From NCBI GenBank assembly GCA_902629935.1, contig CACOSU010000001.1:124001-188000 (forward strand): a stretch of 64,000 nucleotides of DNA, in the 5' to 3' direction. This document shows positions 1 through 22,773 of this stretch, piece by piece (position 1 is the first letter of the stretch; the number at the start of each line of letters is the position of its first letter). The notes beneath the pieces were generated by a model. The model was given only the letters and a program-made list of their open reading frames with translations, did not search any database and was not told where the DNA came from. A program made the position numbers and the translations under genes. Origin of the DNA: an uncultured Pelagibacteraceae bacterium. Its GTDB lineage: Bacteria; Pseudomonadota; Alphaproteobacteria; Pelagibacterales; Pelagibacteraceae.

Positions 1-2151
1 GAGGTTTTAATTTCATCAGGATCTATTGAAAGACCAATAGTTTTTGGAAATAATGATACGCCAGGTGTAATGCTTTCTTCTGCTGCTAAAGAATACTTAA
101 AAGTTTATGGAGTTTTAGTTGGAAAAAATCCATTGATATTTACAAATAACGACAGTGGATACGAAACAGCTATTGAATTTCAAAAACATGGAGTGCAACC
201 AACAGTATTAGATTCAAGAAAAAATCCTGAATCAGAAATTATTGATGAGGCGAAAAGTTTAGGAATAAATATTAAAAATTCTTATGTAGTTGTTGCAGCA
301 CAAGGATATAAAAAAGTAAAATCTGCAGATATAGCGAGTATTTCTGATGATAAAAAACAACTTGGAAAAATAGAAAATATTATATGTGATTGTATATGCG
401 TTTCAGGTTTTTGGACACCGTCTATTCATTTAGCATCTCAATCAGGAAATAAAACTAAGTTTAAAGAAGAAATTGATGCATTTGTTCCAGGGACCTCAAA
501 ACAACAAGAGACCACTTTAGGAGCTGCTAACGGAGTATTCTCTTTAGAAGAAACTCTAAAAACTTCATTTGAAAAAGGAAGAGAGTTATCAAAAAAAATT
601 ACTGATAATGATAACGAAGTAAGCATTCCAAACGTAGTTGAAAAAAAATCTTCTAAACACGATAAGTTTTGGTGTGTTCCATTACCAGCAGGAAAAAATT
701 ATAAAAGATTTTTAGATTTTCAAAACGACGTAGCTGTATCGGATATCGAAATAGCTCTGAGAGAAGGTTATAGATCAATCGAGCATGTTAAAAGATATAC
801 TACGCTTGGAATGGCAACAGACCAAGGTAAAACAAGTAATTTGAATGGTTTACAGCTAGTTTCAGAAATTGAAAATAAAGTTGTTCCAGCAGTAGGTCAT
901 ACTACTTTTAGACCTCCATATACACCTATATCAATTGGTGCGATTGTAGGAAGAGAAGTTGGCAAAAATTCAAAACCAACAAGGAAATCTCCAATGCATG
1001 ATTGGCATGAGAAAAATAATGCAGTTTTTGTTGATGCGGGTGTTTGGTTGAGACCTAGATATTACAAAAGAGGTAACGAAAATTTATTTGAAGGATCTAA
1101 GAGAGAAGCAAAAAATGTGAGAACAAATGTTGGTGTTTGTGATGTGACTACACTTGGTAAAATTGATATCAAAGGACCAGATTCGGCTGAGTTGTTAAAT
1201 AGAGTCTATACTAATGCTTGGTTAAAATTACCAGTAGGTAAAGCTAGGTATGGTGTTATGTTAAGAGAAGACGGTATTGTTATGGATGATGGAACAACTA
1301 CAAGAATTTCAGAAAATCACTATCATATGACTACGACAACAGCACAGGCTGCAAATGTTCTTTCACATTTAGAATATTATTTACAACTAGTATGGCCTGA
1401 ATTAAATGTTAATGTTGTTTCAACAACAGAACAATGGGCAGGAGCGGCTATTGCAGGACCAAAATCTAGAGATGTCTTACAAAAATTATTTCCAAATTTA
1501 GATGTATCTAATGAGGGACTTCCTTTTATGGGTTATATGGAAGGAAATTTATTTGGAGTAAAAGCTAGAATATTTCGAATATCTTTTTCAGGTGAGCTTG
1601 CATATGAAGTCAACGTCGAGTCTGATAATGGAAACTTTATGTGGCAAAAAATTATGGAAGTTGGTGAGGAGTTTAAAATCCAACCATATGGTACAGAAGC
1701 ACTATCAACTTTGAGAATTGAAATGGGACATGTTGCTGGCTCAGAACTTGATGGGAGAACAATACCTTATGACAATGCTTTAGATGGCCTTGTTAGCAAA
1801 AAGAAAGATTTTATTGGAAAAAGATCACTTCAAAGAGCAGCTTTTACAGCAGGGGACAGACAAAGAGTAGTAGGGGTAGTTCCCCTAGATAAAAAAACAA
1901 GTATTCCAGAAGGATCTCATTTAGTTAAAGATGCTAATGCACCTTTACCAAATCCAAAGTTAGGGCATATCTCAGCATCGTGTTGGAGTGTTGAATATGA
2001 CAATCCTTTTTCTTTGGCAATATTGAAAGATGGAAAAAATATGATTGGTGAAAAACTATTTGTAATGTCACCTCTTAAAAACAAAGTAATTCCAGTAGAA
2101 GTAGTATCGTCACATTATGTAGATCCAAAAGGTGAGAGGGTTAGATCATGA
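1..2151 (+). CDS. soxA: Sarcosine oxidase alpha subunit, 5'-truncated by window edge
   Basis: The reading frame is open from base 1, so the true start lies outside the window; 716 residues remain of a family that is usually about 1000. SoxA belongs to the heterotetrameric sarcosine oxidase (SoxBDAG), which oxidises sarcosine to glycine and passes the methyl carbon to tetrahydrofolate. The fragment opens inside the FAD/NAD-binding half with the family-typical [16 protein letters not shown] stretch. A middle segment with [21 protein letters not shown] follows, and the C-terminal half, from about residue 320, is a GcvT-like folate-binding domain ([12 protein letters not shown], then [19 protein letters not shown]). 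The stop overlaps the soxG start (ATGA), which supports translational coupling. soxB and soxD would be expected just upstream. The identification is secure. Confidence 0.95.
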
Positions 2152-2735
2152 CTTTAATTTCAGCTTTGGCAAATGTTCATAAACAAGGTGAGTTTGGAGA
2201 TCATGAGGGCAAGAATGAACATGATCTATTAAAAATAACGGAAAATAAAAATTTACTAATTGTTCAAATAGTTCAGTATAAAAACTCTTCAGTTTCATTT
2301 GAGGGTATTAATGTAGATGGATTAAAATTAAAAAACGAACCTCAAACTGTAATATTTAATGATAATACAAGAATTATGTGGAACGGGCCAAAGAATTGGC
2401 TTTTAGTATCAACAAAAAAAGATTTAATAAAGAATATTCTAAACGAATTTAAAGATACAGACTTTGCTATAACAGATCTATCACATTCAAGAGCGATCAT
2501 TGAAATTGAGGGAAAAGAAACAATAGAGGTTTTAAAAAAAGGTTGCCCTTTTAATTTAAACATATTAGAGATAAATAATTCAATAAATTCAACTTATAAT
2601 GGAATAACCATCACCGTTGATAAGCTAAATGACAATCCATACAAAGTAAGATTGTTTGCTTTAAGAAGTTTTGGAGAATCTTTGTATCACTCAATAACCG
2701 ATGCATCGTTAGAGTTTGGCTTTAAATCTTTTTAA
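2148..2735 (+). CDS. soxG: Sarcosine oxidase gamma subunit
   Basis: This 195-residue protein starts inside the soxA stop codon (4-base overlap), as expected for the last gene of a soxBDAG operon. SoxG is the small GcvT-like subunit of heterotetrameric sarcosine oxidase and is poorly conserved. Recognisable traits are the central NWLLVS and the [29 protein letters not shown] stretch, which matches the SoxG pattern of 'DxSHxRxxxxxxGxxAxxxLxKGCxxDL' closely. The end GFKSF is also ordinary. The 3' end overlaps the convergent DMT transporter by four bases, so the operon ends here with no room for a terminator between the two genes. Confidence 0.9.
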
Positions 2736-7709: not shown

Positions 7710-7803
7710 GAAAATTGACCAATCTGTTTATTTCAAAATTAAGTAAAAATTTCAATAAAATTAATAGTATTTAAAATGTATATTGATTAGAGTTAAACAT
7801 ACT

Positions 7804-8769
7804 ATGAATTATAAAATCGATAATCTTCAATATTGTAATTGGTCTAGAAAAATCCTTGAGATAAATAGATCTGCTGGTCTAGATGCCGTTCATGTAACTA
7901 TCGTGTATCATGAAGATTTTGATGAATTACAGCTCGAAATTAAAAAATGGGAAAAATTATTTCATGAAAATTCTGATTTAATTTTTCTTGGTAAGAATTT
8001 TAAAGATATTGAAAAAGCAAATATAGAAAACAAAACTGCAATATTCTTTGGTTTCCAAAATTGTTCTCCAATCGAAGATGATATAAACCTTGTGGAAAAA
8101 GTTCATCGATTAGGATGTCGTTTTATGCAGCTCACTTATAATAACCAATCCTTACTTGCAACTGGCTGTTACGAAAAAGTAGATAGTGGAGTTACAAATT
8201 TTGGTCGAGAGGTTATAAAAGAAATGAATAGATTAGGAGTTGTTGTGGATATGTCACATTCTGCAGAAAAAAGTACGCTAGATGCAATTGAGTTAAGTGA
8301 AAAACCAATAGCAATCACTCATGCAAATCCTTCTTTTTGGCATCCAGCAAAAAGAAATAAATCATCTGAATTATTAAAAATTTTGAGTGATAGTGGTGGA
8401 ATGTTAGGTTTATCGTTGTATCCCCATCATTTAAAAAATAATTCAAATTGCACTCTTGACAGTTTTTGTGAGATGATAGCAAAGACAGCTGAAATAATGG
8501 GTGTAACAAAAATTGGAATAGGTTCTGATCTTTGTTTAGACCATCCAGATAGTGTTGTTGAATGGATGAGAAACGGCTCTTGGTCAAAAAGTAAAAATTA
8601 TGGAGAAGGAACAAAAAATAAACCAGGTTTTCCAAAACAACCGGATTGGTTTCTTGATGCAAGAGGGTTTTCAAATATTGAAAAAGGACTGAAAAAAATT
8701 GGATTTTCAGATACTGAGACACATGGAATACTTGGAAACAACTGGTACAGTTTTTATAAATCCATCTAA
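7804..8769 (+). CDS. M19 (renal dipeptidase) family protein with altered metal site
   Basis: 321 residues from the ATG at 7804; an in-frame TTG at 7783 is possible but less likely. The fold of peptidase family M19 is clear from GVVVDMSHSAEKSTLDAI, PIAITHANP and KIGIGSDLC. Measured against human renal dipeptidase from memory, three ligands are kept with exact spacing: His152, His173 and Asp242 (intervals 21 and 69). The N-terminal HxD pair is not visible, and the bridging Glu of the GxEG motif is Gln85 (FFGFQN). A standard binuclear zinc site is therefore unlikely. The protein may use one metal, act on a non-dipeptide substrate, or be non-catalytic. It is followed after two bases by an unknown 553-aa gene. 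Confidence 0.8.
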   Translation: MNYKIDNLQYCNWSRKILEINRSAGLDAVHVTIVYHEDFDELQLEIKKWEKLFHENSDLIFLGKNFKDIEKANIENKTAIFFGFQNCSPIEDDINLVEKVHRLGCRFMQLTYNNQSLLATGCYEKVDSGVTNFGREVIKEMNRLGVVVDMSHSAEKSTLDAIELSEKPIAITHANPSFWHPAKRNKSSELLKILSDSGGMLGLSLYPHHLKNNSNCTLDSFCEMIAKTAEIMGVTKIGIGSDLCLDHPDSVVEWMRNGSWSKSKNYGEGTKNKPGFPKQPDWFLDARGFSNIEKGLKKIGFSDTETHGILGNNWYSFYKSI

Positions 8770-8771
8770 TT

Positions 8772-10433
8772 ATGAAAGTTAAACTTAGAGACCCAAATAA
8801 GATAATGAAATTATCAAGGCTAGGGTCTTTTCATCAATCAAAATTATCTTTTTTAAGAAGTTTTCTTAATGAATTTAAAGAATGGGAATATAAAAGAGAT
8901 TTATTTAATTTAAATGAAAGTGGTTTTGGAGAAGCTGTTTATTCATTTAGAAAAAATAAAAGAATTTATTCTTTAGTTTGTTTTGCAAATGAAATTAATG
9001 ATGAAGAAAGATCAGATAGAGTTATTGCTACAAAATGGGATGCTGCTTTTACATTGCACGATGGAGTTCCAACTGAGAAAGATATTGAGAGATTAAAAAA
9101 TGAAGTTCCAAAACAAGAAGTTGGCAGACTTTCATATAAAGAATTAACTTTATCGAGAGCAAATAAGTCAGTAAGAATTTACAATCATGTAGTTGAAAGT
9201 TTGAGTAATGGTAAGCAACCAGATTTAAAATTGTTATCAAATGTAGGTTATTTATATAGGACAACGGCAGTATATGGTTCAGGTAAATTTGGTCTTGCAG
9301 ATCGATTTAGAATTAAAAATCGTGAGGAAATTAATGGGCCATTTAGATTAGAAATGATGTTGGTTTATCTGGTAAGACAATTTACGTTTGATCAAGTTAA
9401 TCATGTTGCTTATCATAAAAATCCAAAAACAGCGGTTAGGCTAGATGATAATATTTGTAAAAACTTAGGAATTGGTAACTCTACGGGTTTAGGTATGGCT
9501 CCTTTTATAGTTAATCACCCAACTCTACTTAATAATTGGATCTTAAGTAGAGAAATGGCACTTAAAAAAATTAGAGAAATCAAAGACGTAAAAATTCAAG
9601 ATAGTGATTTATTTATAGATTGTGTAAAAGAATCATTAAAAAATATTACAAGCTGGAATACGGATAGCGAATATCAACAAAAAAAAATTTCCTCATTATT
9701 AAAGGATGTTAAAAGATTTTTAAATTTTATAGACAAAGATTTTAATTTTGAGATCGAATATCCTTTTAATAAAATATATCAATGGTTAGAGAAAAATACT
9801 TGCGAGGAATGTATTGAATATATTGTTTCGATAATGATGGAACCCTATAACAACATTGTAAATCCTTTGGTAAAACAAATGAGCTCAGATGAAGAAAAAT
9901 ATTTTAATATACCAACTCATAGAAAAGTTGAAGAATTGCGTAATATCATTAAAGTAAAGTATCCCAATATTTTAGATATTGATTTTGAAGAAAAAGAAAA
10001 TAATAAAAACTTTTGGTTTATTTCAAAAAATAAAGAGGAACCTAGATTGGCTGACCGTTTTGAAGAGCATGGATCAGAATTAGAACAACCGTTAGCAATA
10101 GCTAGAGATATAAAAAAACTTTTTGACAGATTATTAGCCTCAAAAAATAGTTTAACTATTGCTGAGTTTTTAAAATCAAATTCTGATTTAAGACATGTTG
10201 TAAGGAGAGCGTTCATTGTAGAAAAATTTCCTTATTCAGAAATACAAGATAATACAATTGGTAAAGATTTGATGCCAATTGATATGCTAAGACTAAAGTT
10301 ATCTTTTTTTGGGGCATTAAAATTTGATCCACGATCAGATAAATGGTTAAGGATTTGCATGTTCCAAGGAGCTCCACTTCCAAATGAGTTAAAAAGTTAT
10401 GACGAGCAGTGGGTATATAAAACCAATATTTAA
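8772..10433 (+). CDS. Unknown 553-aa protein linked to the M19-like gene
   Basis: A large soluble protein of 553 residues with mixed charged and aromatic content, no signal peptide and no membrane segment. I do not recognise its family and see no nucleotide-binding loop or metal motif. Conserved-looking stretches are GKFGLADRFRIKNREEINGP, QVNHVAYHKNPKTAVRLDD and GNSTGLGMAPFIVNHPTLL. These glycine- and histidine-rich segments in a lysine-rich protein are likely functional sites. It begins two bases after the M19-like gene and ends two bases before the DUF3726-like gene, so the three form one translational unit. Confidence 0.75.
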   Translation: MKVKLRDPNKIMKLSRLGSFHQSKLSFLRSFLNEFKEWEYKRDLFNLNESGFGEAVYSFRKNKRIYSLVCFANEINDEERSDRVIATKWDAAFTLHDGVPTEKDIERLKNEVPKQEVGRLSYKELTLSRANKSVRIYNHVVESLSNGKQPDLKLLSNVGYLYRTTAVYGSGKFGLADRFRIKNREEINGPFRLEMMLVYLVRQFTFDQVNHVAYHKNPKTAVRLDDNICKNLGIGNSTGLGMAPFIVNHPTLLNNWILSREMALKKIREIKDVKIQDSDLFIDCVKESLKNITSWNTDSEYQQKKISSLLKDVKRFLNFIDKDFNFEIEYPFNKIYQWLEKNTCEECIEYIVSIMMEPYNNIVNPLVKQMSSDEEKYFNIPTHRKVEELRNIIKVKYPNILDIDFEEKENNKNFWFISKNKEEPRLADRFEEHGSELEQPLAIARDIKKLFDRLLASKNSLTIAEFLKSNSDLRHVVRRAFIVEKFPYSEIQDNTIGKDLMPIDMLRLKLSFFGALKFDPRSDKWLRICMFQGAPLPNELKSYDEQWVYKTNI

Positions 10434-10435
10434 TA

Positions 10436-11047
10436 ATGAAATCACTAAGTGAAATTGAAACTACTGTTAAAAGAGCTTCAAAAGCAGCTGGATATTCTTG
10501 GGGAGTTTCAGAGGAAACAGGAAAAAGTATAAGGTTGTTAGAACTATTTAGTTTACCAGGTATTAAGCACCTCAATGAATATTTTAATGAAAAAAGTAAA
10601 AATAAATTTGACAATTTAAATTTAATTAGTGTAAATAACTCTTCATCAAACAATCCTTATTGTCCAATTACTTTAGGCGTTAGTTTTTTAGATCAAATAA
10701 ACGTTTTAGAAAATTTAAAAAAAATTAAATTTAACAATGTCGCTTATCCAATAATTTTTATTTCCTTCATAAGTCGTTCTTCAGAAATTATTGGAAAAAA
10801 AATTTATGTAAAAATAGATGAAAAAAAAATTTTACTAAATTTTAATATAAATATTAGTTCAACTTTTATTAATCAAGAATTTCCTAAGGTAGCGAACACA
10901 ATTGAGGTCAATTTACTTGAAAATGAAGACAACTTTACAGACGATGAATGGAATAATTTATACAAGTTATCCGAAGAAACTTTTGTTGAAGAGAGTGACA
11001 GTTTAAAAGAGGGTGCGGCAGGTGCTGGTTTGACTGATAATGATTGA
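10436..11047 (+). CDS. DUF3726-like protein
   Basis: 203 residues opening KSLSEIETTVKRASKAAGYSW with GVSEETGKSIRLLELF, which resembles the N-terminal pattern of DUF3726 as I remember it (xxLAxxAARGAGxxWGxAEEAGxAxRWL). The function of that family is unknown. The C-terminal tail is acidic and ends in a glycine/alanine-rich EGAAGAGLTDND. The gene is tightly coupled to the 553-aa unknown before it. Its last codons overlap the start of a 55-aa cysteine-rich ORF. The family assignment is tentative; that it is a real gene is near certain. Confidence 0.7.
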   Translation: MKSLSEIETTVKRASKAAGYSWGVSEETGKSIRLLELFSLPGIKHLNEYFNEKSKNKFDNLNLISVNNSSSNNPYCPITLGVSFLDQINVLENLKKIKFNNVAYPIIFISFISRSSEIIGKKIYVKIDEKKILLNFNINISSTFINQEFPKVANTIEVNLLENEDNFTDDEWNNLYKLSEETFVEESDSLKEGAAGAGLTDND

Positions 11048-11207
11048 TAAAATTGATGAAAAAAATCTTAATACAGATAATGAAGAATTAAATAATATTT
11101 GTGAGGAATGTAAAGATGAAGACGAGAGTGTTACTCAAAATTTAATTCTTACTGGGTTTAAATTATGTAAATCTTGTAGAGTATCTAAGATTATTTTTCC
11201 ACTTTAA
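11040..11207 (+). CDS. 55-aa protein with two CxxC knuckles (mini zinc ribbon)
   Basis: A small ORF starting with ATG at 11040, eight bases before the end of the DUF3726-like gene, and stopping at 11205-11207. It encodes an acidic N-terminal half followed by CEEC (residues 21-24) and CKSC (residues 43-46), the spacing of a zinc ribbon or small treble-clef domain. Overlap with the gene before it suggests translational coupling in the same four-gene unit. Its 3' end overlaps the convergent Yip1-like gene by four bases. The paired CxxC motifs make chance unlikely, but no homologue is known to me. Confidence 0.65.
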   Translation: MIDKIDEKNLNTDNEELNNICEECKDEDESVTQNLILTGFKLCKSCRVSKIIFPL

Positions 11208-11904: not shown

Positions 11905-13263
11905 TTAGCCTTTTACAACTTCTCTTGTATTTGCGTTGAAAGACTCTTTGAATGGAATATCCACTACAACAGCATCTACAGGTGTTCCTGGAGTTTCTGA
12001 ATATTCTTCAGGTAGATGAACTTTATATTTTGTTCCCACTTTTCCTTTTGGAAAACCATTTGCATTCAACGTTCCATCGAAAGGAACATATCCCATAGCA
12101 ATATTTGTTTTCTTTTCAGGATGCCACCATGGTGATGTTAAAAATCCTACCGGATCTCCACCACTTTCTGGAGAAACTAACCAAAAGTCAGGTGCATAAT
12201 TATCAATAGGTTTGCCGCCTAATTCCATACCAACTAATTGAAGTTTATATGGTTTTTTTCCTGCTTTTAATTCTTCTTTCATTTTTTCTAGTGCAGCCTT
12301 ACCAACATAATCAGCAGTTTTGTTCCATTCTCCTTTTCCAGACAAAGAAACTTGATAACCTAAATTACATTGAAACGGATTGTGTTGTTGATCCATGTCT
12401 TGTCCCCATGAAAGTATACCTGCTTGAATTCTTCTATGGTGAGCAGGAGCAATAACCATTAAGCTATGTTTTTTTCCAGCCGCAAGCACAGCATTCCACA
12501 TATCTTCAGCATATAAAGTAGAATTTCTTAGATAAATTTCATAACCTGCTTCTCCTGAAAAACCAGACTGAGAAATTACAACATCTCTTCCTCCAACCTT
12601 AGCTGCTGCTAAGCCGTAGAAAGGCATATTATCAAAATCAACTTGATCGCCGCATAGATCCTTCATTAATGCTTTTGATTTAGGTCCTTGTATTTGTACT
12701 GGACTGACATCAATTTCTTCAATAGTACAATTGAATCTTCCATCAGCATTAACACCTTGTAAATACATTCCAATATCAGAGTCTGATAATGAAAACCAAA
12801 ACTCATCTTCTGAAATTCTTAAAAGAATTGGATCATTTAAAACTCCACCATAAGCGTTACACAAAATAACGTATCTTGCTCTCATTGGAGAAATTTTAGT
12901 TGCATCTCTTGTGATCACATAGTCCGTAAATTTTTCTGCATCTGGACCCTTTACTCTTATTTGTCTTTCAACAGCCACGTTCCACATTGTTACATGGTTT
13001 ACGATCGCATCGTATTCAACCATAGCTCCACCATCTTCAGGTTTTACATAACCTCTTGGGTGATAAATTCTGTTGTATACAGTTGCTCTCCAACAACCCG
13101 CCTGCATTGATAAATGCCAATAAGGTGACTTTCTTACCCTTGTTGAAATTAACATTTCAACTTTTGTTGGTCCACTTTGTCTTAAATTGTATGGTACTTC
13201 TCTATCTGACTGATCAACAGAAGTAACATGTTTTAATTTAGTATAGTCAAATTCATTAGACAT
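11905..13263 (-). CDS. GcvT-fold, tetrahydrofolate-dependent demethylase-like protein
   Basis: 452 residues of the aminomethyltransferase/GcvT superfamily, longer than GcvT or DmdA (about 370). Family traits are VNHVTMWNVAVERQIRVKGPD, the ILCNAYGGVLNDPILLRI segment and QIQGPKSKALM. The C-terminal half has GYVPFDGTLNANGFPKG. Relatives such as DmdA and LigM move a methyl group from DMSP or an aryl ether to tetrahydrofolate. The partner gene just upstream in the operon encodes a MetF-like protein, and the first two genes encode a betaine-type transporter, so the substrate is probably an imported methylated compound. I could not match it to true DmdA and leave the substrate open. An intrinsic terminator follows. 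Confidence 0.8.
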   Translation of the reverse strand: MSNEFDYTKLKHVTSVDQSDREVPYNLRQSGPTKVEMLISTRVRKSPYWHLSMQAGCWRATVYNRIYHPRGYVKPEDGGAMVEYDAIVNHVTMWNVAVERQIRVKGPDAEKFTDYVITRDATKISPMRARYVILCNAYGGVLNDPILLRISEDEFWFSLSDSDIGMYLQGVNADGRFNCTIEEIDVSPVQIQGPKSKALMKDLCGDQVDFDNMPFYGLAAAKVGGRDVVISQSGFSGEAGYEIYLRNSTLYAEDMWNAVLAAGKKHSLMVIAPAHHRRIQAGILSWGQDMDQQHNPFQCNLGYQVSLSGKGEWNKTADYVGKAALEKMKEELKAGKKPYKLQLVGMELGGKPIDNYAPDFWLVSPESGGDPVGFLTSPWWHPEKKTNIAMGYVPFDGTLNANGFPKGKVGTKYKVHLPEEYSETPGTPVDAVVVDIPFKESFNANTREVVKG

Positions 13264-13984
13264 AACTATTCTCCCTCAACCACTTGTTAGTTTCCTTCAA
13301 GCCGCCGAATGTATAAATGTGGAAGTTATCAGTATGCGATTTAACTTTCCCAATTAAATCATTAGGGTCTTTAGGTTTCAATAAATCTAATGCCTTAGTA
13401 AAATTAGATTTAAGAAAGTTTAAGGAATTTTTTGCCCCAACAATATTAGCAAATTTAATTAAGCTAGATATTTTTAATGGCCCAGTAATTCCCACATGCA
13501 CTGGTACGCTTTGCTTAGAAATAAAATCTATAATAGGCTGAGGATCAAGTAACCATTGAGTTACAATATAATCAGCATAAGGCTTTTTATCTATCATAGC
13601 TTTTTCTAAATCTGAGTCGGATATATCAGGACTCCCCTCGGGATGTCCAGCAATTCCTATTTTCATTTTTTCAAAATAACCTGTCTCTAAAAGTTGAAAA
13701 GAACTGTCAAATTTACCAGCAGGCTCTCTTCCACCTCCAATAATTAAAGCTTGTTTAACACCACCATCCTTACATCTTGAAACATAATCTTTAAGTTCGT
13801 TTTCGTCCTGCATTGATCTAGCTGGAAAGTGGGGCACTGGATTAAAACCTTTTTTTACAAGTTCTACAGCTTTTTCTGCTGTCTCTCTATAATCACCTCC
13901 AGGCAACATTGTAATGTAAACATCGCTCAAAGATGGGATTGTATCAATTTCAGTTTTAGGACTAATTTCTAAAGAAAAATTCAT
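13256..13984 (-). CDS. Methylenetetrahydrofolate reductase-like protein
   Basis: 242 residues with the MTHFR barrel pattern: a start resembling EISPKTEIDT, PVPHFPARSM (the segment that holds folate-contact residues), a QALIIGGGREP glycine loop and GIAGHPEGSP. IVTQWLLDPQPIIDFI corresponds to the IVTQFFFD segment of MetF, with Phe replaced by Trp/Leu. It is shorter than E. coli MetF (about 296). Its coding end overlaps the start of the GcvT-like gene by eight bases. A MetF-like protein beside a methyl-accepting GcvT protein suggests it processes the methyl- or methylene-THF formed there. True MTHFR activity is not proven. Confidence 0.75.
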   Translation of the reverse strand: MNFSLEISPKTEIDTIPSLSDVYITMLPGGDYRETAEKAVELVKKGFNPVPHFPARSMQDENELKDYVSRCKDGGVKQALIIGGGREPAGKFDSSFQLLETGYFEKMKIGIAGHPEGSPDISDSDLEKAMIDKKPYADYIVTQWLLDPQPIIDFISKQSVPVHVGITGPLKISSLIKFANIVGAKNSLNFLKSNFTKALDLLKPKDPNDLIGKVKSHTDNFHIYTFGGLKETNKWLRENSYV

Positions 13985-14048: not shown

Positions 14049-14933
14049 TTATTTGATTTGGCCTCTGTGTTTCTGAATTCTTCTTCCGTACTCTTGAGTG
14101 ACCCTATCAAAAACTATAGCAAGAGCTACTATTGCTAAACCATTCATCATTCCGAGGGCTAAATATTGATTAGATACTGCTCTTAATATTGGTACCCCAA
14201 GCCCTTTAACCCCAATCATTGAGGCTATCACTACCATGGCTAATGCCATCATAATAGTCTGATTAACCCCTGCAAAAACAGTCGGTAAAGCAAGAGGTAT
14301 TTGAACAGATTTTAATTTTTGAGTTGTAGTTGCCCCAAATGCTTCACTAGCTTCCAAAGTTTCTTTATCTACCTCTCTGATCCCTAGATTTGTTAATCTT
14401 ATAATTGGAGGAACTGCATACACACAAACAGCTATTAATCCAGGAACTTTACCAATACCCAACAACATTAATATAGGAATTAAATAAACAAAACTTGGAA
14501 TTGTTTGCATCATGTCTAAGACAGGAAGAATAGCTTTTTCAGCTCTACTTGATCTTGCCATTACAATACCAATTGGGATACCAACAACAATACAAATTAT
14601 TGTACAAACTGTAATAATGGCAACTGTTGCCATACAATCTTCCCACATACCAAAATAACCAATTAACAAAAAAGCAATTGCACTTCCTGTAACCAATTTC
14701 CAACTCTTCGAACCCAACCAGGCTAATCCGCAAATTACAGAAATAATTATTATCCATGGCGTAGATAATAGTAATTTTTCTAATGATACTAAAAAAAATA
14801 ATAGTGGATCAAAAAATGCCTCTATATTATCCCCATATTCTCTTGAAAAATTTCTAAAAGCTAAGTCTATCCCTTTTCTTAACTCCATCTGGGATCTTCT
14901 TCCCATTTCAGGAAATTCAGTAAAAAATTCCAT
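14049..14933 (-). CDS. Glycine betaine/proline-type ABC transporter permease (ProW/OpuAB)
   Basis: 294 residues with about seven membrane segments. The binding-protein-dependent permease signature is EAFGATTTQKLKSVQIPLAL (the EAA loop that contacts the ATPase), and the neighbouring GVNQTIMMALAMVVIASMIG is typical of ProW/OpuAB. The N-terminal tail is soluble. It follows the binding-protein gene and precedes the MetF-like gene. No ATP-binding subunit is encoded in this operon or elsewhere in the window in a matching form, so an ATPase must come from another locus. Substrate class is quaternary amine or related sulfonium compounds. Confidence 0.88.
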   Translation of the reverse strand: MEFFTEFPEMGRRSQMELRKGIDLAFRNFSREYGDNIEAFFDPLLFFLVSLEKLLLSTPWIIIISVICGLAWLGSKSWKLVTGSAIAFLLIGYFGMWEDCMATVAIITVCTIICIVVGIPIGIVMARSSRAEKAILPVLDMMQTIPSFVYLIPILMLLGIGKVPGLIAVCVYAVPPIIRLTNLGIREVDKETLEASEAFGATTTQKLKSVQIPLALPTVFAGVNQTIMMALAMVVIASMIGVKGLGVPILRAVSNQYLALGMMNGLAIVALAIVFDRVTQEYGRRIQKHRGQIK

Positions 14934-14943
14934 AAGTATTATT

Positions 14944-14972
14944 TTACGAGCCTATATTAAATAGGCTCGTAA
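14944..14972 (-). other. Perfect 12-bp hairpin between binding-protein and permease genes
   Basis: TTACGAGCCTAT (14944-14955) and ATAGGCTCGTAA (14961-14972) are perfect complements around a five-base loop. The element fills most of the 50-base gap between the binding-protein stop and the permease start and lacks a T-run on the minus strand. It fits an mRNA-stabilising or attenuating hairpin that lets the binding protein be made in excess. Confidence 0.75.
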
Positions 14973-14983
14973 TTTAAAGTTAA

Positions 14984-16003
14984 TTATAAACTTTTTTTGA
15001 TTTTTTTTGCAGCACTAGAAGATACCCACTTAGTCCAAATATCTTCATGCTTAATTAAAAACTCAACTGCTGCATCAGAACCTTTTGCTTGGTTATCAGC
15101 CATATAAACAAGCATTCCATTCATGACTGTACCTGGATATGTTCTATTTTCAACATAGCTAAGAACATCTTTTCCACCAGTTTTAGCAAAGTTAGCACTT
15201 ACAATTGAATTAACCTCAGATTTTGTCCATGCAGTTGGTTTTGGATTTGCACAATCTTGCTCAGCAAGAGTAATGCAATTATCCCAATTATCTCTTCCCG
15301 CAAAAGGAACACCAAAGTCTACTGGTTGTAAATTATATTTACCAACCATTGATGTAGGGTTCCAGTAATAACCAAACCATGGTTCACCAGAGTCTGATGC
15401 TTTTGCGATAGAGCCGTCTAAACCTGCAGCTGAACCTGGATCAATTAGTTTCCAACCTTTTTTCTCCATTTCAAATGCTCTATATAAGTTTGCATTAGCT
15501 AATTGACATCCCCAACCAGCTGGACATCCCATGAAAGCTCCTTTTGATGGATCTTCTTTGTCTGGAAATAAATCAGGACGTTCTAAGATTTGCATTGCAG
15601 TCATTCCTTTAAGCTCTGGATGTTTTTTTAAAGCTGCAGGATTTAACCACCAACCTTCACCAAGACCTGTAATTGGAGCTTTATTAGCAATAATTAATCT
15701 TTTTTCACTTACTGCTTTTTTTAAAGGAGTGTAAACTGCATTAGCCCATTGCTCAGGGTTCATGTCAGGAGTTCCTTTATCATTCATTGATGTAAATGTT
15801 GGCATAGTAGCACCAGGCACTAATTCCACTTCACATCCATATCCTTCCTCAAGGATGATCTTGTCAACGTTTGCCATCAACTCAGCTGACGCCCAGTTTT
15901 GCTCGGCAATTACTAATTTTCCACAAGCATTAGCAACATTGCTAAATGCTGTCATTCCAAACGCTAGAACTGCAGAAAGTAGTATACTATTTAGTTTTTT
16001 CAT
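14984..16003 (-). CDS. Periplasmic glycine betaine-type substrate-binding protein (OpuAC/ProX)
   Basis: 339 residues with a signal peptide whose likely cleavage is after VANA (residue 26). The mature protein begins CGKLVIAEQNWASAE, typical of OpuAC-family binding proteins that catch quaternary amines between aromatic residues; Trp-rich segments such as GEGWWLNP, GCPAGWGC and EPWFGYYWNP supply candidates for the aromatic cage. Cys27 directly follows the predicted cleavage site, but the region does not look like a lipobox. First gene of the operon with the permease, MetF-like and GcvT-like proteins. Likely ligands are glycine betaine, DMSP or a similar osmolyte; the exact one is not readable. 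Confidence 0.88.
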   Translation of the reverse strand: MKKLNSILLSAVLAFGMTAFSNVANACGKLVIAEQNWASAELMANVDKIILEEGYGCEVELVPGATMPTFTSMNDKGTPDMNPEQWANAVYTPLKKAVSEKRLIIANKAPITGLGEGWWLNPAALKKHPELKGMTAMQILERPDLFPDKEDPSKGAFMGCPAGWGCQLANANLYRAFEMEKKGWKLIDPGSAAGLDGSIAKASDSGEPWFGYYWNPTSMVGKYNLQPVDFGVPFAGRDNWDNCITLAEQDCANPKPTAWTKSEVNSIVSANFAKTGGKDVLSYVENRTYPGTVMNGMLVYMADNQAKGSDAAVEFLIKHEDIWTKWVSSSAAKKIKKSL

Positions 16004-16270: not shown

Positions 16271-17461
16271 ATGGAGGTTGAAACTAGAAAGTTATCCCAA
16301 ATAATTGACTTAAATAAAATCAAAGTAGTTAATAGACCCATTGCAAAAGCTCATGGCTTACCTAATGAATGTTATACAAATAAGGATTATTTATTTTTTG
16401 AGAGAAAAAAAATTTTTGAAAATAAATGGGTGGTAATTGGTGTTGGTAGCTCAATTCCAAACATTGGTGATGCAAAGCCTTTTGATCTTCTTGGAATTCC
16501 TTTAATAATTTTGAGAGATAAAAATAATAATATTAGAGTTTATCACAATGTTTGTAGTCATCGAGGTTACAAAATTTTACAAGAAGAATGTAAATTAAAA
16601 AATGTAATTCGTTGTCCTTACCATTCATGGTCATATGATATGAATGGGAAGCTAGTTGCTACTCCTCATATTGGTGGAATGAATAAACATAGTTGTAGTA
16701 ACTTTAATAAATCTGGAAGTTCCCTTAAAGAGGTAAAGTCATATGTGTGGTTAGATTTAATATTTGTAAATTTAAATAATAATGAAATTGAATTTGAAAA
16801 CTATATTAAACCTTTAAGTGATAGATGGGCTAAATTTTGGCCACTTACAGATAGAAGTTTAATGGTTTACTCAAATGATTATGGGTATTTTAATCTTAAT
16901 GCAAAATGTAATTGGAAATTTGCAATAGAAAATTATTGTGAAAGTTATCACCTCCCATGGGTACACCCTGGACTAAATTCCTACTCGAAACTGGACGATC
17001 ATTATCACATTCAAGGATTACCAAATAGATTTGCTGGACAAGGAACGCTAGTTTATAATCCTAGATTTAAAAGTAAGCTAAAATTTCCATGCTTCCCAAG
17101 TTGGCCTAAAGATAAAGAGAATATTGCTGAGTATGTAGCTTTATTTCCTAATGTAATGCTTGGAATTCATAAAGATCATTTTTATGCCTATTGGCTAGAA
17201 CCAGTTAGCAATGAATATACAAAAGAACATATGGAAATTTATTATGTTGGTAATGAAGCTGCAAATTCAAAAAAATTTAAATCATTAAGAAGACAAAATT
17301 TTGAGCTTTGGAAAGGAGTTCAAAGTGAGGATTTAAATATTATTGAGGGTATGCAAGAGGGTAGAAACTCTCCATCTTATAATGGAGGAAATTTTTCTCC
17401 TAAAATGGATAATCCTACTCACCATTTTCATAAATGGGTTGCAAGTAACTTAATGAAATGA
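16271..17461 (+). CDS. Rieske-type oxygenase alpha subunit
   Basis: 396 residues from ATG 16271, which is preceded by the strong ribosome binding site AAAGGAGG (16259-16266); an upstream TTG at 16256 would include that site and is rejected. The Rieske [2Fe-2S] ligands are Cys95, His97, Cys115 and His118 (CSHR and CPYH). The mononuclear iron site is seen in NYCESYHLPWVH (His227, His232). The family includes choline monooxygenase, glycine betaine monooxygenase and stachydrine demethylase, which oxygenate N-methyl groups. It heads the long betaine run and is followed by BHMT after 11 bases. I infer a methylated-amine substrate. No reductase partner is evident nearby. Confidence 0.88.
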   Translation: MEVETRKLSQIIDLNKIKVVNRPIAKAHGLPNECYTNKDYLFFERKKIFENKWVVIGVGSSIPNIGDAKPFDLLGIPLIILRDKNNNIRVYHNVCSHRGYKILQEECKLKNVIRCPYHSWSYDMNGKLVATPHIGGMNKHSCSNFNKSGSSLKEVKSYVWLDLIFVNLNNNEIEFENYIKPLSDRWAKFWPLTDRSLMVYSNDYGYFNLNAKCNWKFAIENYCESYHLPWVHPGLNSYSKLDDHYHIQGLPNRFAGQGTLVYNPRFKSKLKFPCFPSWPKDKENIAEYVALFPNVMLGIHKDHFYAYWLEPVSNEYTKEHMEIYYVGNEAANSKKFKSLRRQNFELWKGVQSEDLNIIEGMQEGRNSPSYNGGNFSPKMDNPTHHFHKWVASNLMK

Positions 17462-17472
17462 AAGGATAAATA

Positions 17473-18513
17473 ATGAAAAAAGACCTGATTACAAGATTAA
17501 ATGAGGGGCCCATAATGTGTGCAGAGGGATATCTTTTTGCAATGGAAAGAAGAGGCTATCTTTCAGCAGGACCTTTCGTGCCTGAAGTTGTTTTAGAACA
17601 TCCAGAGGTGGTTTCACAATTACATAGAGAGTTTATACGAGCAGGCTCAGATGTTGTTCAAGCATTTACATATTATGGTCATAGAGAAAAACTGAGAATT
17701 ATTGGTAAAGAAGATATGCTAGAACCACTTCAAAAAAATGCTCTTAAAATTGCTAAAGATGCAGCAAGCGAATTTAAAGACCTAGATCTAATGGTTTGTG
17801 GAGATGTAGCTAATACAAATATTTTTGATCCTGGAGATAATAGTACTCATAAAGAATGTCAAAAAATGTATGAGGAACAAATAGGTTGGGCAAAAGATGC
17901 AGGTGTAGATTTCGTAATAGCGGAAACAATCAATTGGACAGAGGAAATGAAAATTGCACTAAAAGCAATTAAAGATGCAGGTTTAATAGCTGTCTGTAAT
18001 TTTGCAATACCAAGAGGAGACAAAACTAGAGAAGGACATAGTGCTGAAGATGCTTGTAAAATGATGGAAGATTTAGGTGCTGATGTTGTTGGTTTAAATT
18101 GTTACAGAGGTCCAAATATGACTATGAAGCTATTAAAAAAAGTAAGAGATAAAGTTTCTTGTCATGTTGCTGGTCTTCCCGTCCCTTACAGAACAACAGA
18201 AGAAGAGCCAGGTTTTTTAAATATTTCTGATAGTGGATGTAATTGCATTCCTGGAGGAAATGCATTCCCTGTTGCTTTAGATAATTTATTTTGCAATCGA
18301 TTTGAAATGGCAGAATTTGCTAAAGATTGTGTTTCAAAAAAAATTAATTTTATTGGTATTTGTTGCGGGGCCGAAGCTCATCATGTGAGAGAGATGTCAG
18401 TCGCAATTGGAAAAAAACCAATATCAATGAAATATATGCCAGATATGAGTAAACACTTTCATCATGGAACAGATAAATCTTTAAAAAAAGTTAATAAGGA
18501 AATTAAATATTAA
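17473..18513 (+). CDS. bhmT: Betaine-homocysteine S-methyltransferase
   Basis: 346 residues of the homocysteine S-methyltransferase barrel. Zinc ligands are Cys210 (VGLNC) and Cys297/Cys298 (GICCGA). Other family features are the N-terminal EGYLFAMERRGYLSAGPFVP and AGSDVVQAFTYYGHREKL. The enzyme moves a methyl group from glycine betaine to homocysteine, giving methionine and dimethylglycine, the substrate of the next gene. The stop overlaps that gene's start (TAATG). In SAR11, which depends on reduced sulfur and on osmolytes, this also supplies methionine. DMSP could be an alternative methyl donor, but nothing in the sequence settles this. Confidence 0.9.
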   Translation: MKKDLITRLNEGPIMCAEGYLFAMERRGYLSAGPFVPEVVLEHPEVVSQLHREFIRAGSDVVQAFTYYGHREKLRIIGKEDMLEPLQKNALKIAKDAASEFKDLDLMVCGDVANTNIFDPGDNSTHKECQKMYEEQIGWAKDAGVDFVIAETINWTEEMKIALKAIKDAGLIAVCNFAIPRGDKTREGHSAEDACKMMEDLGADVVGLNCYRGPNMTMKLLKKVRDKVSCHVAGLPVPYRTTEEEPGFLNISDSGCNCIPGGNAFPVALDNLFCNRFEMAEFAKDCVSKKINFIGICCGAEAHHVREMSVAIGKKPISMKYMPDMSKHFHHGTDKSLKKVNKEIKY

Positions 18514-20918
18514 TGGAAAAAAATGCTAAAGTAGTTGTTATAGGAGGAGGAGTAGTTGGCTGCTCAATTCTATATCATCTATCAAAGTTTGGTTTAAAAG
18601 ATTGTATTTTGCTTGAGAGAAACGAACTTACATCGGGTTCATCTTGGCATGCTGCTGGAAATGTTCATGTTATTTCTTCAGACCCAAATATCTCTAGAAT
18701 GATGGCTTATACTATTGGTCTCTATAAAGAAATTGAAAAAGAGTCAGGTCATTCAGTTGGATTTAAACCAAGTGGTGGATTTTATTTAGCTTCAAATGAA
18801 GTTTGGGCAGATTATCTTAAAAGAGAAAGATCTAAAGCTAGATACATGGGTCTTGATCAAGAATTTATTTCTCTTGAAGAAGTAAAGAAGAAACATCCTC
18901 TAATAGATCCATCTCGATACTTATTAGCACTTTGGGATCCCATTGATGGAGAAGTTGACCCATCAGGTGTAACCTACGCTTTTGCAAAAGCTGCCAAAGT
19001 ACATGGCGGTAAATATTACACACACACAGTTGTTAAAGATACTAAACAGAAAAAGGATGGTACATGGGATGTATTTACAGACAAAGGTAATATTAATGCT
19101 GAAATAGTTATTAATGCTGGAGGACTTTGGGCAAGAGAAGTTGGTCAACTTGCAGGATTACATCTGCCCGTTCAGCCTATGGAGCACCATTATTTAATTA
19201 CAGAGCCTATTCCAGAAATTGAGGAAATGGGTGATCAAAGGCTACCAATTGGAACTGATTTTGAGGGAAATATTTATTTTAGGCAAGAAGGAAAAGGAAT
19301 GCTTTTAGGGACTTATGAACCAAAATCAACCCCCTGGAAAATAGAGGGGACACCAATGAACTTTGGTCATGAATTGTTGGATCCTAAATTAGATAACATC
19401 CAAGATAGGCTAGCGATTGGTTTTGAGCGTATGCCTGCTTTAGAGAGAGCTGGTATAAAAAATATCGTTAATGGACCTTTTACCTTTGGACCAGATGGAA
19501 GCCCTTTAATAGGACCAGTTCCTGGAATGAAAAATTATTGGGTTGCAGTTGGTGTTATGGCTGGATTTTGCCAAGGGGGTGGAGTTGGAAAATGTATTGC
19601 TGAATGGATTATAGATGGAGAGCCATCTATAGATGTATGGGCAATGGATGTTGCTAGGTTTGGAGATTACGCATCTCCACAATATGGAACAATAAAATCT
19701 TCTGAAAACTATGAAAGAAGATTTATTATGACTTTTCCAAATGAAACTTTACCAAAAGGAAGAAAACAAAAAACTACAGCACTATATGATCGTTTTATTA
19801 ATCAAGGAGCAGTCATGGGAGATAGCTTTGGTTTAGAGAACGTTTTGTGGTTCGCAAATAACAAAGAAGATGCATTTGAGGAACCTACTATAAAAAGATC
19901 TAGATCTCATGATTATGTTTCAAAAGAAGTAATTAATGTAAGAGAAAATGTTGGATTTATAGAAGTTGCTAATTTTTCAAAGCATGAATTCAAAGGTCCA
20001 GATGCTAGAAAGTTTTTAGATCATATAATGGCTGGAAAAATTCCAAAACCAGGCAGAATTTCTCTATCACCAATGCTATCTTACAGGGGAAAATTATGTG
20101 GAGATCTTACTGTCGCTTGTTTTGATGAAGATGAATTTATGGTTTTTGGATCTGGTGCTGCTCAAGAAATGCATAGACGATGGTTTGAAAGTCATTTAGG
20201 AAAATTTAATTTGAATTATACAAATAGATCCGATGAGTTCCATGGATTGTCAATAGCTGGCCCTAACTCTAGAAAGGTTCTTGAAAAAATAGTTAGAGAA
20301 GATGTTTCATCCGAAAAATTTAAATTTAGAGACTCTAGAAGAATGTTTGTTGGAGGAGTACCAGCAATTATAAATAGAATCTCATTTACTGGAGAACTTG
20401 GTTATGAAATTTATGTTGCTCCACATTTCCAAATTAAACTATATGAGGAGATAATTGAAGCTGGAAAAGAATTTAATATTAAACCATTTGGTGGAAGAGC
20501 CCTTATGTCAATGAGATTAGAAAAAAATTGGGGCGCTTGGACTTTGGATTATAGACCAGATTTTACCGCGAGGGAAACAGGGTTAGATGCTTTTATAAAT
20601 TGGGATAAAGATTTTATTGGAAAAGAAAATGCTCAAAAAGAAAATGGTTCAAACAAATTAATTCCGTTAATTGTTGAAACTAATGATATAGATGTAACAA
20701 ATAATGAAGCTGTAATGATTGGTAATCAAAGTATTGGCTACGTTACTTCAGGTGGATTTGCACACTTTGTTAATAAAAGTATGGCTTTTACTTATATAGA
20801 TGAAAATAAAGTAAATTTTGAAAATAAAATTCAAATAGAAATTAACGGAGACTTATTTAATTGTTCAATAATAAAAGAACCACTCTATGATCCTAGTGGA
20901 CAAAAAATGAGAAGTTAA
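18513..20918 (+). CDS. Dimethylglycine/sarcosine dehydrogenase-type flavoprotein with GcvT domain (copy 1)
   Basis: 801 residues in the DMGDH layout: N-terminal FAD-binding oxidoreductase (VVVIGGGVVGCSILYHL), His46 in SSWHAAG at the position of the covalent FAD histidine, then a C-terminal GcvT-like folate domain from about residue 430 (SFGLENVLWFANN, then VNVRENVGFIEVANFSKHEF). It would demethylate dimethylglycine or sarcosine, hand electrons to ETF and the one-carbon unit to tetrahydrofolate. BHMT lies immediately upstream, which favours dimethylglycine. The second copy at 28534 probably takes the next step. Which copy prefers which substrate is not decided by sequence. Confidence 0.9.
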   Translation: MEKNAKVVVIGGGVVGCSILYHLSKFGLKDCILLERNELTSGSSWHAAGNVHVISSDPNISRMMAYTIGLYKEIEKESGHSVGFKPSGGFYLASNEVWADYLKRERSKARYMGLDQEFISLEEVKKKHPLIDPSRYLLALWDPIDGEVDPSGVTYAFAKAAKVHGGKYYTHTVVKDTKQKKDGTWDVFTDKGNINAEIVINAGGLWAREVGQLAGLHLPVQPMEHHYLITEPIPEIEEMGDQRLPIGTDFEGNIYFRQEGKGMLLGTYEPKSTPWKIEGTPMNFGHELLDPKLDNIQDRLAIGFERMPALERAGIKNIVNGPFTFGPDGSPLIGPVPGMKNYWVAVGVMAGFCQGGGVGKCIAEWIIDGEPSIDVWAMDVARFGDYASPQYGTIKSSENYERRFIMTFPNETLPKGRKQKTTALYDRFINQGAVMGDSFGLENVLWFANNKEDAFEEPTIKRSRSHDYVSKEVINVRENVGFIEVANFSKHEFKGPDARKFLDHIMAGKIPKPGRISLSPMLSYRGKLCGDLTVACFDEDEFMVFGSGAAQEMHRRWFESHLGKFNLNYTNRSDEFHGLSIAGPNSRKVLEKIVREDVSSEKFKFRDSRRMFVGGVPAIINRISFTGELGYEIYVAPHFQIKLYEEIIEAGKEFNIKPFGGRALMSMRLEKNWGAWTLDYRPDFTARETGLDAFINWDKDFIGKENAQKENGSNKLIPLIVETNDIDVTNNEAVMIGNQSIGYVTSGGFAHFVNKSMAFTYIDENKVNFENKIQIEINGDLFNCSIIKEPLYDPSGQKMRS

Positions 20919-21541
20919 TGGCTCAAAAAGACGTTGGAAATAAAATACCAATTTATAAGCTTAAAACTACAAGTGAAGTAATGAAATACTATGATGAATG
21001 GGGTGATAAAGATAAATATAATAAAGATATGGTCGATTGGAACTACACTGGACCAAAAGAAACTGTTGAAATATTTAATAAATATCAAAAAAACAAAAAT
21101 ATTCTTATATTTGATGCTGGTTGTGGAACGGGTTTAGTTGGAATAGAGTTGAAAAAGTATGGTTTTGAAAATTTTCATGGAGCAGATTTGTCACAAACAT
21201 TGCTAGATACCGTTCCAGTAAACCTTTATCAAAAATTAGAAAAAGTTGATTTAAATCAAAAAATTAGTTCTGATGATAATTATTATGATGCAGTAATGTG
21301 TGTTGGTACATTTACTTTTGGACACGTAAAACCAAATGCGTTAGATGAATTCGTAAGAATTACAAAACCAGGTGGTTTAATATGTTTTACCATTAATGAG
21401 GGCATACATGAAGAATATGGCTTTGATAAAAAAATTGAAATTTTAAAAAATAATAAATGGGAAGAACTTGAATTTTTTAAATCAGATTATATTGCAAGCA
21501 AGGATGTTAATGCTTGGTTAGGACTGTACAGAGTAAAATGA
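20918..21541 (+). CDS. Class I SAM-dependent methyltransferase
   Basis: 207 residues with the Rossmann motif I as FDAGCGTGLVG (Asp66 to Gly75) and the acidic post-I residue in GADLS. The YYDAVMCVGTFTFGHV segment and FVRITKPGGLICFTIN are motifs II/III of small-molecule methyltransferases (Methyltransf_11 type). Coupled to the flavoprotein by a TAATG and to the M24 gene by an ATGA overlap. The acceptor is unknown. A methyltransferase inside a demethylation run is notable: it may make, repair or detoxify a methylated intermediate. Confidence 0.85.
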   Translation: MAQKDVGNKIPIYKLKTTSEVMKYYDEWGDKDKYNKDMVDWNYTGPKETVEIFNKYQKNKNILIFDAGCGTGLVGIELKKYGFENFHGADLSQTLLDTVPVNLYQKLEKVDLNQKISSDDNYYDAVMCVGTFTFGHVKPNALDEFVRITKPGGLICFTINEGIHEEYGFDKKIEILKNNKWEELEFFKSDYIASKDVNAWLGLYRVK

Positions 21542-22773
21542 GATTTGGTAGAAAAATAGCTCCACATGTAAAAACTAAACAAAATTTTATAACTAAAAAA
21601 AGATTAAGAGAAGATCAAATAAATTTTGAAAAATTAAGGTCATATCGTTTGAGCAGAGTAAGAAAAGAATTAGAAAAAAATAATTTAGAAGCTTGTATTT
21701 TATTTGATCCAGTTAATGTACGTTATGCTTTAGATAGTCTTAATATGAGTGTTTATAATATGCATAATTTGACTAGATATTGTTTTGTTCCAGTAAATGG
21801 ACCAACAATTCTATACGAATATTTTAATTGCGAAAATTTGTCTTCACATTTAAATTTAATTGACGAAATCAGACCAGCAATTACTTGGGATTATTTTAGC
21901 AATGGCAATCAAGCATCTAACGAATTAAAAAAATGGATTAATGAAATAAAAGATTTATCAAATAAATATTTTAAATCAAAAAAAATAGCAGTAGATGTTT
22001 TAAATGGACCTGCTGTATCAGCTTTAAACAAAGAGGGTATTGAAGTAGTAGACGCAAAACTAATTCTTGAACAAGCTAGAGTCATAAAATCACCTGACGA
22101 ATTAATTTGTATGAAAGCTGCTATTGAAGTTGCCGAAATGGGTGTATCAAAAATGCGTTCTGAACTGAAAGCAGGAATGACAGAGGATGAGTTATGGTCA
22201 ATTTTGCATAAGACAAATATTGAAAATGGAGGAGAATGGATTGATTGTAGAATTTTATCATCTGGGCAGAGAACAAATCCATGGATGCAAGAAAGTAGTA
22301 ACAAAGTTATCCAACATGGAGAACTAGTAGCTTTTGATACTGATATGGTAGGACCTTATGGATATTGTGCAGATATCTCCAGAGCTTTTGTTGTTGGTAA
22401 CAAATTTAGTGATGAACAAAAAAAATTGTATCAAATGGCTCGAGAACAAATTAATCATAATTCACGATTAATTAAAGATGGTGTGTCTTTTCAGGAATTT
22501 ACTGAAAAATCTTGGGTATTACCTGAGGACTATTATCCAAACAGATATTCAGTAATGGTGCATGGAATCGGAATGTGTGACGAATGGCCTGCAATAAAAT
22601 ATCCTACAGATGGAGGTGAACGAAGTGGCATTTTCTCAAAAAATATGACTATTACTGTAGAAAGTTATGTTGGTAAAGTAGGTGGTAAAGAGGGAGTTAA
22701 ACTTGAACAACAATATTTGATAGGTGAAAATGGACTTGAATTGATGTCCCATCATCCTTTAGAAGATATTTAA
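21538..22773 (+). CDS. M24-fold protein resembling DMSP lyase DddP
   Basis: 411 residues from the ATG overlapping the previous stop (ATGA); an in-frame TTG at 21514 is rejected. Annotated by fold it is an M24 (creatinase/Xaa-Pro peptidase) protein, but the match to DddP as I remember it is close. Metal ligands Asp267, Asp269, Asp279, His342, Glu375 and Glu390 show nearly the intervals of Ruegeria DddP (295, 297, 307, 371, 406, 421). The DddP catalytic pair Tyr366/Asp377 is matched by Tyr337 and Asp348 in HGIGMCDEWP. ILFDPVNVRYALDSLNM and GGEWIDCRILSSGQRTNPW are also DddP-like. It would cleave DMSP to acrylate and DMS; a peptidase role is the alternative. Confidence 0.75.
   Translation: MRFGRKIAPHVKTKQNFITKKRLREDQINFEKLRSYRLSRVRKELEKNNLEACILFDPVNVRYALDSLNMSVYNMHNLTRYCFVPVNGPTILYEYFNCENLSSHLNLIDEIRPAITWDYFSNGNQASNELKKWINEIKDLSNKYFKSKKIAVDVLNGPAVSALNKEGIEVVDAKLILEQARVIKSPDELICMKAAIEVAEMGVSKMRSELKAGMTEDELWSILHKTNIENGGEWIDCRILSSGQRTNPWMQESSNKVIQHGELVAFDTDMVGPYGYCADISRAFVVGNKFSDEQKKLYQMAREQINHNSRLIKDGVSFQEFTEKSWVLPEDYYPNRYSVMVHGIGMCDEWPAIKYPTDGGERSGIFSKNMTITVESYVGKVGGKEGVKLEQQYLIGENGLELMSHHPLEDI

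Follow-up and report, generated by a model that had tools for sequence, protein, structure and literature searches.

A probable SAR11 form of the homarine catabolic operon that joins an incomplete-site M19 protein, a 553-residue protein, and DUF3726

We analyzed 64,000 nucleotides from the genome of an uncultured Pelagibacteraceae bacterium (GenBank assembly GCA_902629935.1, contig CACOSU010000001.1, positions 124,001–188,000; this whole stretch is hereafter the window), with a focus on a unit of four plus-strand genes at 7804–11207. In order, these encode a 321-amino-acid (aa) M19-clade amidohydrolase-like protein, a 553-aa protein, a DUF3726 protein, and a 55-aa protein with four cysteines. 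The unit is probably the SAR11 form of an operon for the catabolism of homarine (N-methylpicolinate), probably homABCDER, and the pathway has probably already been published; we infer the substrate, the order of the steps, and the identity of the ring opener. Products of the unit carry the annotations “membrane dipeptidase” or “hypothetical,” although roughly two thirds of the sampled SAR11-order genomes (197/297) contain the 553-aa gene. The right annotation would tie a very abundant group of marine bacteria to the cycling of a major nitrogen compound from algae.

The M19, 553-aa, and DUF3726 genes traveled together across Alpha- and Gammaproteobacteria. Their usual order in other Alphaproteobacteria, Vibrio, and Pseudomonas was (LysR), aldehyde dehydrogenase (ALDH), M19, 553-aa, DUF3726, and (Ldh2), with a BCCT gene sometimes inserted and, in Pseudomonas, with ALDH and M19 lying on the other strand. 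Within a class-wide sample the 553-aa gene was found in 39/289 genomes. Eighty Pelagibacteraceae loci were fetched to count co-occurrence: the M19 and 553-aa genes were present in all 80 (one M19 gene was frameshifted and one 553-aa gene was in two pieces), DUF3726 was present in 79, the remaining locus being cut off by the end of its contig, and 74 carried the 55-aa gene. All four genes were under purifying selection (ratios of nonsynonymous to synonymous substitution rates, dN/dS, of about 0.04–0.28), which together with their recurrence in Pelagibacteraceae argues against a chance arrangement. The four-cysteine gene was seen in Pelagibacteraceae only and was absent from the unit loci of other orders that we examined. 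The SAR11 unit is a three-gene core with its own conserved four-cysteine gene, and the four-gene unit proposed in the first-pass annotation of this DNA, made from the sequence alone, holds as a co-inherited set within Pelagibacteraceae and not as the general unit. The tight coupling that it had described was confirmed, with 2-base gaps between the M19 and 553-aa genes and between the 553-aa and DUF3726 genes, and an 8-base overlap between the DUF3726 and 55-aa genes.

A 2026 study of homarine in Nature Microbiology reportedly named the operon homABCDER, with six genes for five enzymes and a regulator, and is said to place it in Rhodobacterales, SAR11, and SAR116 with N-methylglutamate as the product. 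The units of relatives likewise comprise five enzyme genes (ALDH, M19, 553-aa, DUF3726, and Ldh2) and a LysR gene, with the same distribution as that reported operon. The window unit holds three of these six; the Pelagibacteraceae version is without adjoining ALDH, Ldh2, and LysR genes and adds the four-cysteine gene.

Genomic context points to homarine because the LysR-ALDH-M19-553-DUF3726-Ldh2 units of relatives come with BCCT or betaine-type ATP-binding cassette (ABC) transporters; DmdA-type, Rieske, and dimethylglycine-dehydrogenase-like genes were also recurrent neighbors. It does so as well because AraC genes and sarcosine-oxidase-type operons adjoin the unit in three roseobacters. A full sarcosine-oxidase-type BDAG set, an AraC-type gene, and a LysR gene precede the unit in Ruegeria TM1040, and this order is repeated in Phaeobacter porticola and Aliiroseovarius as far as the stretches reach. 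The AraC regulator TmaR adjoins mgdABCD in R. pomeroyi, and the paper that describes this arrangement (PMC13390433) also reports, with reference to Ferrer-Gonzalez 2026 Nat Microbiol, that Mgd has a part in breaking down homarine.

Enzyme content is consistent with the same substrate. In relatives, the operons encode a complete Ldh2-family reductase, and delta1-piperideine-2-carboxylate reductase is its nearest relative of solved structure (3e-47). Enzymes of this type also make N-methyl amino acids. The source genome has, at C8:28270-29265, an unlinked DpkA homologue that is closer to DpkA than the operon Ldh2 is (1.8e-82), and such a homologue co-occurs with the 553-aa gene, being present in 143/197 genomes with that gene and 15/100 genomes without it in a count that ignores phylogeny and has no control gene. 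The source genome also carries gmaS, a putative mgs set, and two sarcosine-oxidase-type operons, which further argues for homarine. Within the window, sarcosine-oxidase/N-methylglutamate-dehydrogenase-type alpha (C-terminal part, the frame beginning upstream of the window) and gamma subunit genes lie ~5 kb upstream of the unit (1–2735, plus strand) and are candidates for the downstream enzyme.

In the route that we propose, a betaine-type transporter would import homarine, and the 553-aa protein would begin ring opening with DUF3726, derived from the Ldh2 fold, as its non-catalytic partner. C–C cleavage would then give an N-acyl, probably N-formyl, N-methyl amide. Homarine has seven carbons and N-methylglutamate six, so one carbon must leave, which suits an amide-hydrolyzing M19 protein; this would act with a single beta-site metal (held by His152, His173, and perhaps Gln85) and Asp242 as the base. 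An aldehyde dehydrogenase would oxidize the resulting semialdehyde, a DpkA-like Ldh2 reductase would produce N-methylglutamate, and N-methylglutamate dehydrogenase would release glutamate. Enzymes encoded outside the unit would carry out the aldehyde dehydrogenase and reductase steps in Pelagibacteraceae. We suggest, tentatively, that the 553-aa and DUF3726 proteins may constitute a new pyridinium ring-opening enzyme, with a fold unmatched among PDB structures and with a truncated dehydrogenase fold as non-catalytic subunit, that the M19 protein may be a single-metal N-formyl/N-acyl amidase, and that the SAR11 complex may add the four-cysteine protein.

Several points weigh against homarine as the substrate. 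The gene-by-gene correspondence with homABCDER is one that we infer, the sarcosine-oxidase-type operons adjoining the units could encode either Mgd or sarcosine oxidase, and the DpkA co-occurrence is weakened by its lack of correction for kinship and of a control gene. No orthologous ALDH or Ldh2 gene was found beside the SAR11 unit, and the best matches to these elsewhere in the source genome were 29–33% identical. Finally, the core has a second version, linked to IclR and present in Sinorhizobium, Bosea, and Variovorax (loci L037, L038, and L040), with a 553-aa protein only 24–29% identical and with other downstream enzymes and transporters; this version shows that the core is not bound to a single substrate. 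The operon ALDH itself had no match in the PDB at the strict limit.

The IclR-linked version is also an argument for an alternative in which the compound degraded is not homarine but a different N-methylated or cyclic betaine-like one, broken down by the same logic of ring opening or C–N cleavage, amide hydrolysis, semialdehyde oxidation, and imine reduction. Its downstream enzymes in Sinorhizobium are an aminotransferase and a succinate-semialdehyde dehydrogenase, the core occurs in soil bacteria and rhizobia, and it lies beside trimethylamine-methyltransferase, Rieske, and dimethylglycine-type genes. We nevertheless consider this unlikely for the window-type unit, given its DpkA-type reductase and its linkage to an AraC regulator and to a sarcosine-oxidase-type operon. 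For the Sinorhizobium version, trigonelline was rejected as an unlikely substrate, as the trigonelline phenotype is lost with pSymA (PMC4207669) and the unit is on a 1.64-Mb, pSymB-sized plasmid.

The M19 gene (7804–8769, plus strand) encodes 321 aa, or 328 aa from an alternative TTG start at 7783. Its product belongs to Peptidase M19 by profile (PF01244, 9.6e-70, scoring 235.7 bits where the cut-off is 26), with a match that begins at profile position 38 and leaves the HxD portion unmatched. The active-site reading of the first-pass annotation was borne out by alignment: His152, His173, and Asp242 are retained at the spacing of renal dipeptidase (21 and 69 residues), Gln85 takes the position of the bridging Glu, and there is no HxD. 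The renal counterparts of the two His and the Asp we take to be His198, His219, and Asp288. Arg184 is likewise kept, so that the unit protein shares the beta-site His pair, Arg, and Asp with this binuclear M19 enzyme but is without the alpha-site HxD and the bridging Glu, and the renal enzyme’s own His152 is replaced. The alignment thus showed no binuclear M19 site of HxD, bridging Glu, and two His in the 321-aa protein, and because HxD is absent and Gln85 stands for Glu, M19 homology here does not imply a dipeptidase role.

We aligned the protein with 17 further unit copies, annotated relatives, and other alphaproteobacterial M19 proteins. The closest solved structure was PDB 2i5g, an “amidohydrolase” (3.3e-56) with the same substitutions. 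The unit M19 proteins of both subtypes and the 2i5g type all had G-x-Q-N and all lacked HxD, and formed a single clade (support 0.94) with the FGxQN motif, throughout which His152, His173, Arg184, and Asp242 were kept. Classical M19 proteins outside this clade retained HxD and Glu, and a few other outsiders had lost one or both. No complete M19 site was found in the unit of any relative examined. Since every unit M19 and the 2i5g type show the identical pattern, it is a fixed subfamily signature with the beta-metal site alone left and not the decay of one gene. The earlier description as a “degenerate” dipeptidase does not fit a pattern that extends to 2i5g and to dgc-associated proteins.

A 2i5g-type M19 gene adjoins dgcAB-like genes at a Halomonas locus, and the described pepD-hp-dgcAB arrangement ties this type to methylated-amine catabolism (PMC12093977). 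The pepD product of dgcAB (dimethylglycine demethylase) clusters shares the HxD-less, Gln-for-Glu clade with the unit protein; unlike in the unit, it is accompanied by DgcAB and a ~186-aa protein and by neither a 553-aa nor a DUF3726 protein. The missing HxD and bridging Glu could also mean that the M19 protein has no catalytic activity and serves purely in a structural or regulatory capacity, which would be compatible with the homarine assignment. We regard this as rather improbable given the clade-wide retention of His152, His173, Arg184, and Asp242, the dN/dS of about 0.04–0.08, and the existence of mononuclear beta-site amidohydrolases such as E. coli NagA.

The 553-aa gene (8772–10433, plus strand) follows the M19 gene. 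The protein had no significant match in Pfam or NCBIfam, and ~85 of its residues are invariant across Alpha- and Gammaproteobacteria (dN/dS 0.06–0.09). Its predicted model had a mean predicted local distance difference test (pLDDT) score of 72 and was poorest exactly where conservation peaks; Foldseek and VIA returned nothing above Z 3.7 with this low-confidence model, so the protein is at most a candidate for a new fold. V-ATPase subunit C was rejected as a relative, its weak PDB profile matches (E 0.014) being read as coiled-coil chance. No other part of the unit is as conserved or as poorly explained, which makes the 553-aa protein the best candidate for the ring opener.

DUF3726 is encoded at 10436–11047 (plus strand; 203 aa with a conserved AGAGLTDND tail; dN/dS 0.10–0.17), and the protein matches its family profile above the gathering score of 22.1 (PF12525, 4.8e-21, 74.8 bits). 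For its predicted structure (pLDDT 86), the 15 best structural matches were all Ldh2/type-2 malate dehydrogenases (Z 8.8–10.4, with the next unrelated row at 4.4), aligned over residues 1–168 at ~8% identity, and the N-terminal profile match to this family was weak (hhalign probability 14–34%). Neither the SHG catalytic-His segment, which falls in an alignment gap, nor the full-length cofactor-binding part was found in DUF3726. We did not class it as an Ldh2 enzyme because this segment is missing and because it is ~140 residues shorter than the family whose fold it shares, which includes DpkA (1wtj). The model therefore predicts a truncated Ldh2 dehydrogenase fold without the catalytic His, a new observation, and for the same reasons the protein is more likely a partner, presumably of the 553-aa protein, than an enzyme. 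A natural fusion of the two (814 aa) in Mesorhizobium (locus L034:8956-11400) supports a putative 553-aa/DUF3726 complex. We found nothing in the literature on DUF3726 and PA5396, and a single-sequence tblastn search for DUF3726 on plasmids, for which the family is too divergent, gave only 2 records.

The 55-aa gene (11040–11207, plus strand; dN/dS 0.13–0.28) encodes a probable zinc knuckle with no significant Pfam or NCBIfam match. The four cysteines noted at first pass form a CxxC...CxxC pattern in 75/75 homologues found, and the protein is a SAR11 addition outside the general unit. The first-pass suggestion that a degenerate dipeptidase is the center of a system for maturation or for peptide/amide processing could draw on this mini-protein, the incomplete M19 site, and the uncharacterized partners, but is very improbable: the operon context in relatives is catabolic and transporter-linked, neither a precursor peptide nor a modified target was seen, the four-cysteine gene is confined to Pelagibacteraceae, and the wider operon indicates that an N-methylated compound is catabolized, homarine being the likeliest.

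Downstream of the unit, the window encodes a ProW/ProX-type betaine ABC transporter on the minus strand (14049–16003; permease at 14049–14933, binding protein at 14984–16003), and these families also flank the unit in other orders. Between the two (11905–13984, minus strand), the gene for a GcvT-like protein resembling dimethylsulfoniopropionate demethylase (234.7 bits, below the cut-off of 410) overlaps that for a 242-aa protein without an NCBIfam match. Beside the betaine transporter genes, these are probably a one-carbon demethylation pair. The plus-strand genes at 16271–22773 encode a Rieske oxygenase near glycine-betaine monooxygenase (below cut-off) and homocysteine-methyltransferase-like, dimethylglycine-dehydrogenase-like, and DddP-like (below cut-off) proteins, a row that appears to be a methylated-amine/osmolyte island. 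In a sister family of the order, a Type III glutamine synthetase/GmaS-like gene lies shortly upstream of the unit (L211:4102-5460). Elsewhere in the source genome (L179:6276-9965), three adjacent genes on one strand lie by a TRAP-type transporter: another Ldh2 homologue, a hydrolase-like gene, and a gene for an aldehyde dehydrogenase.

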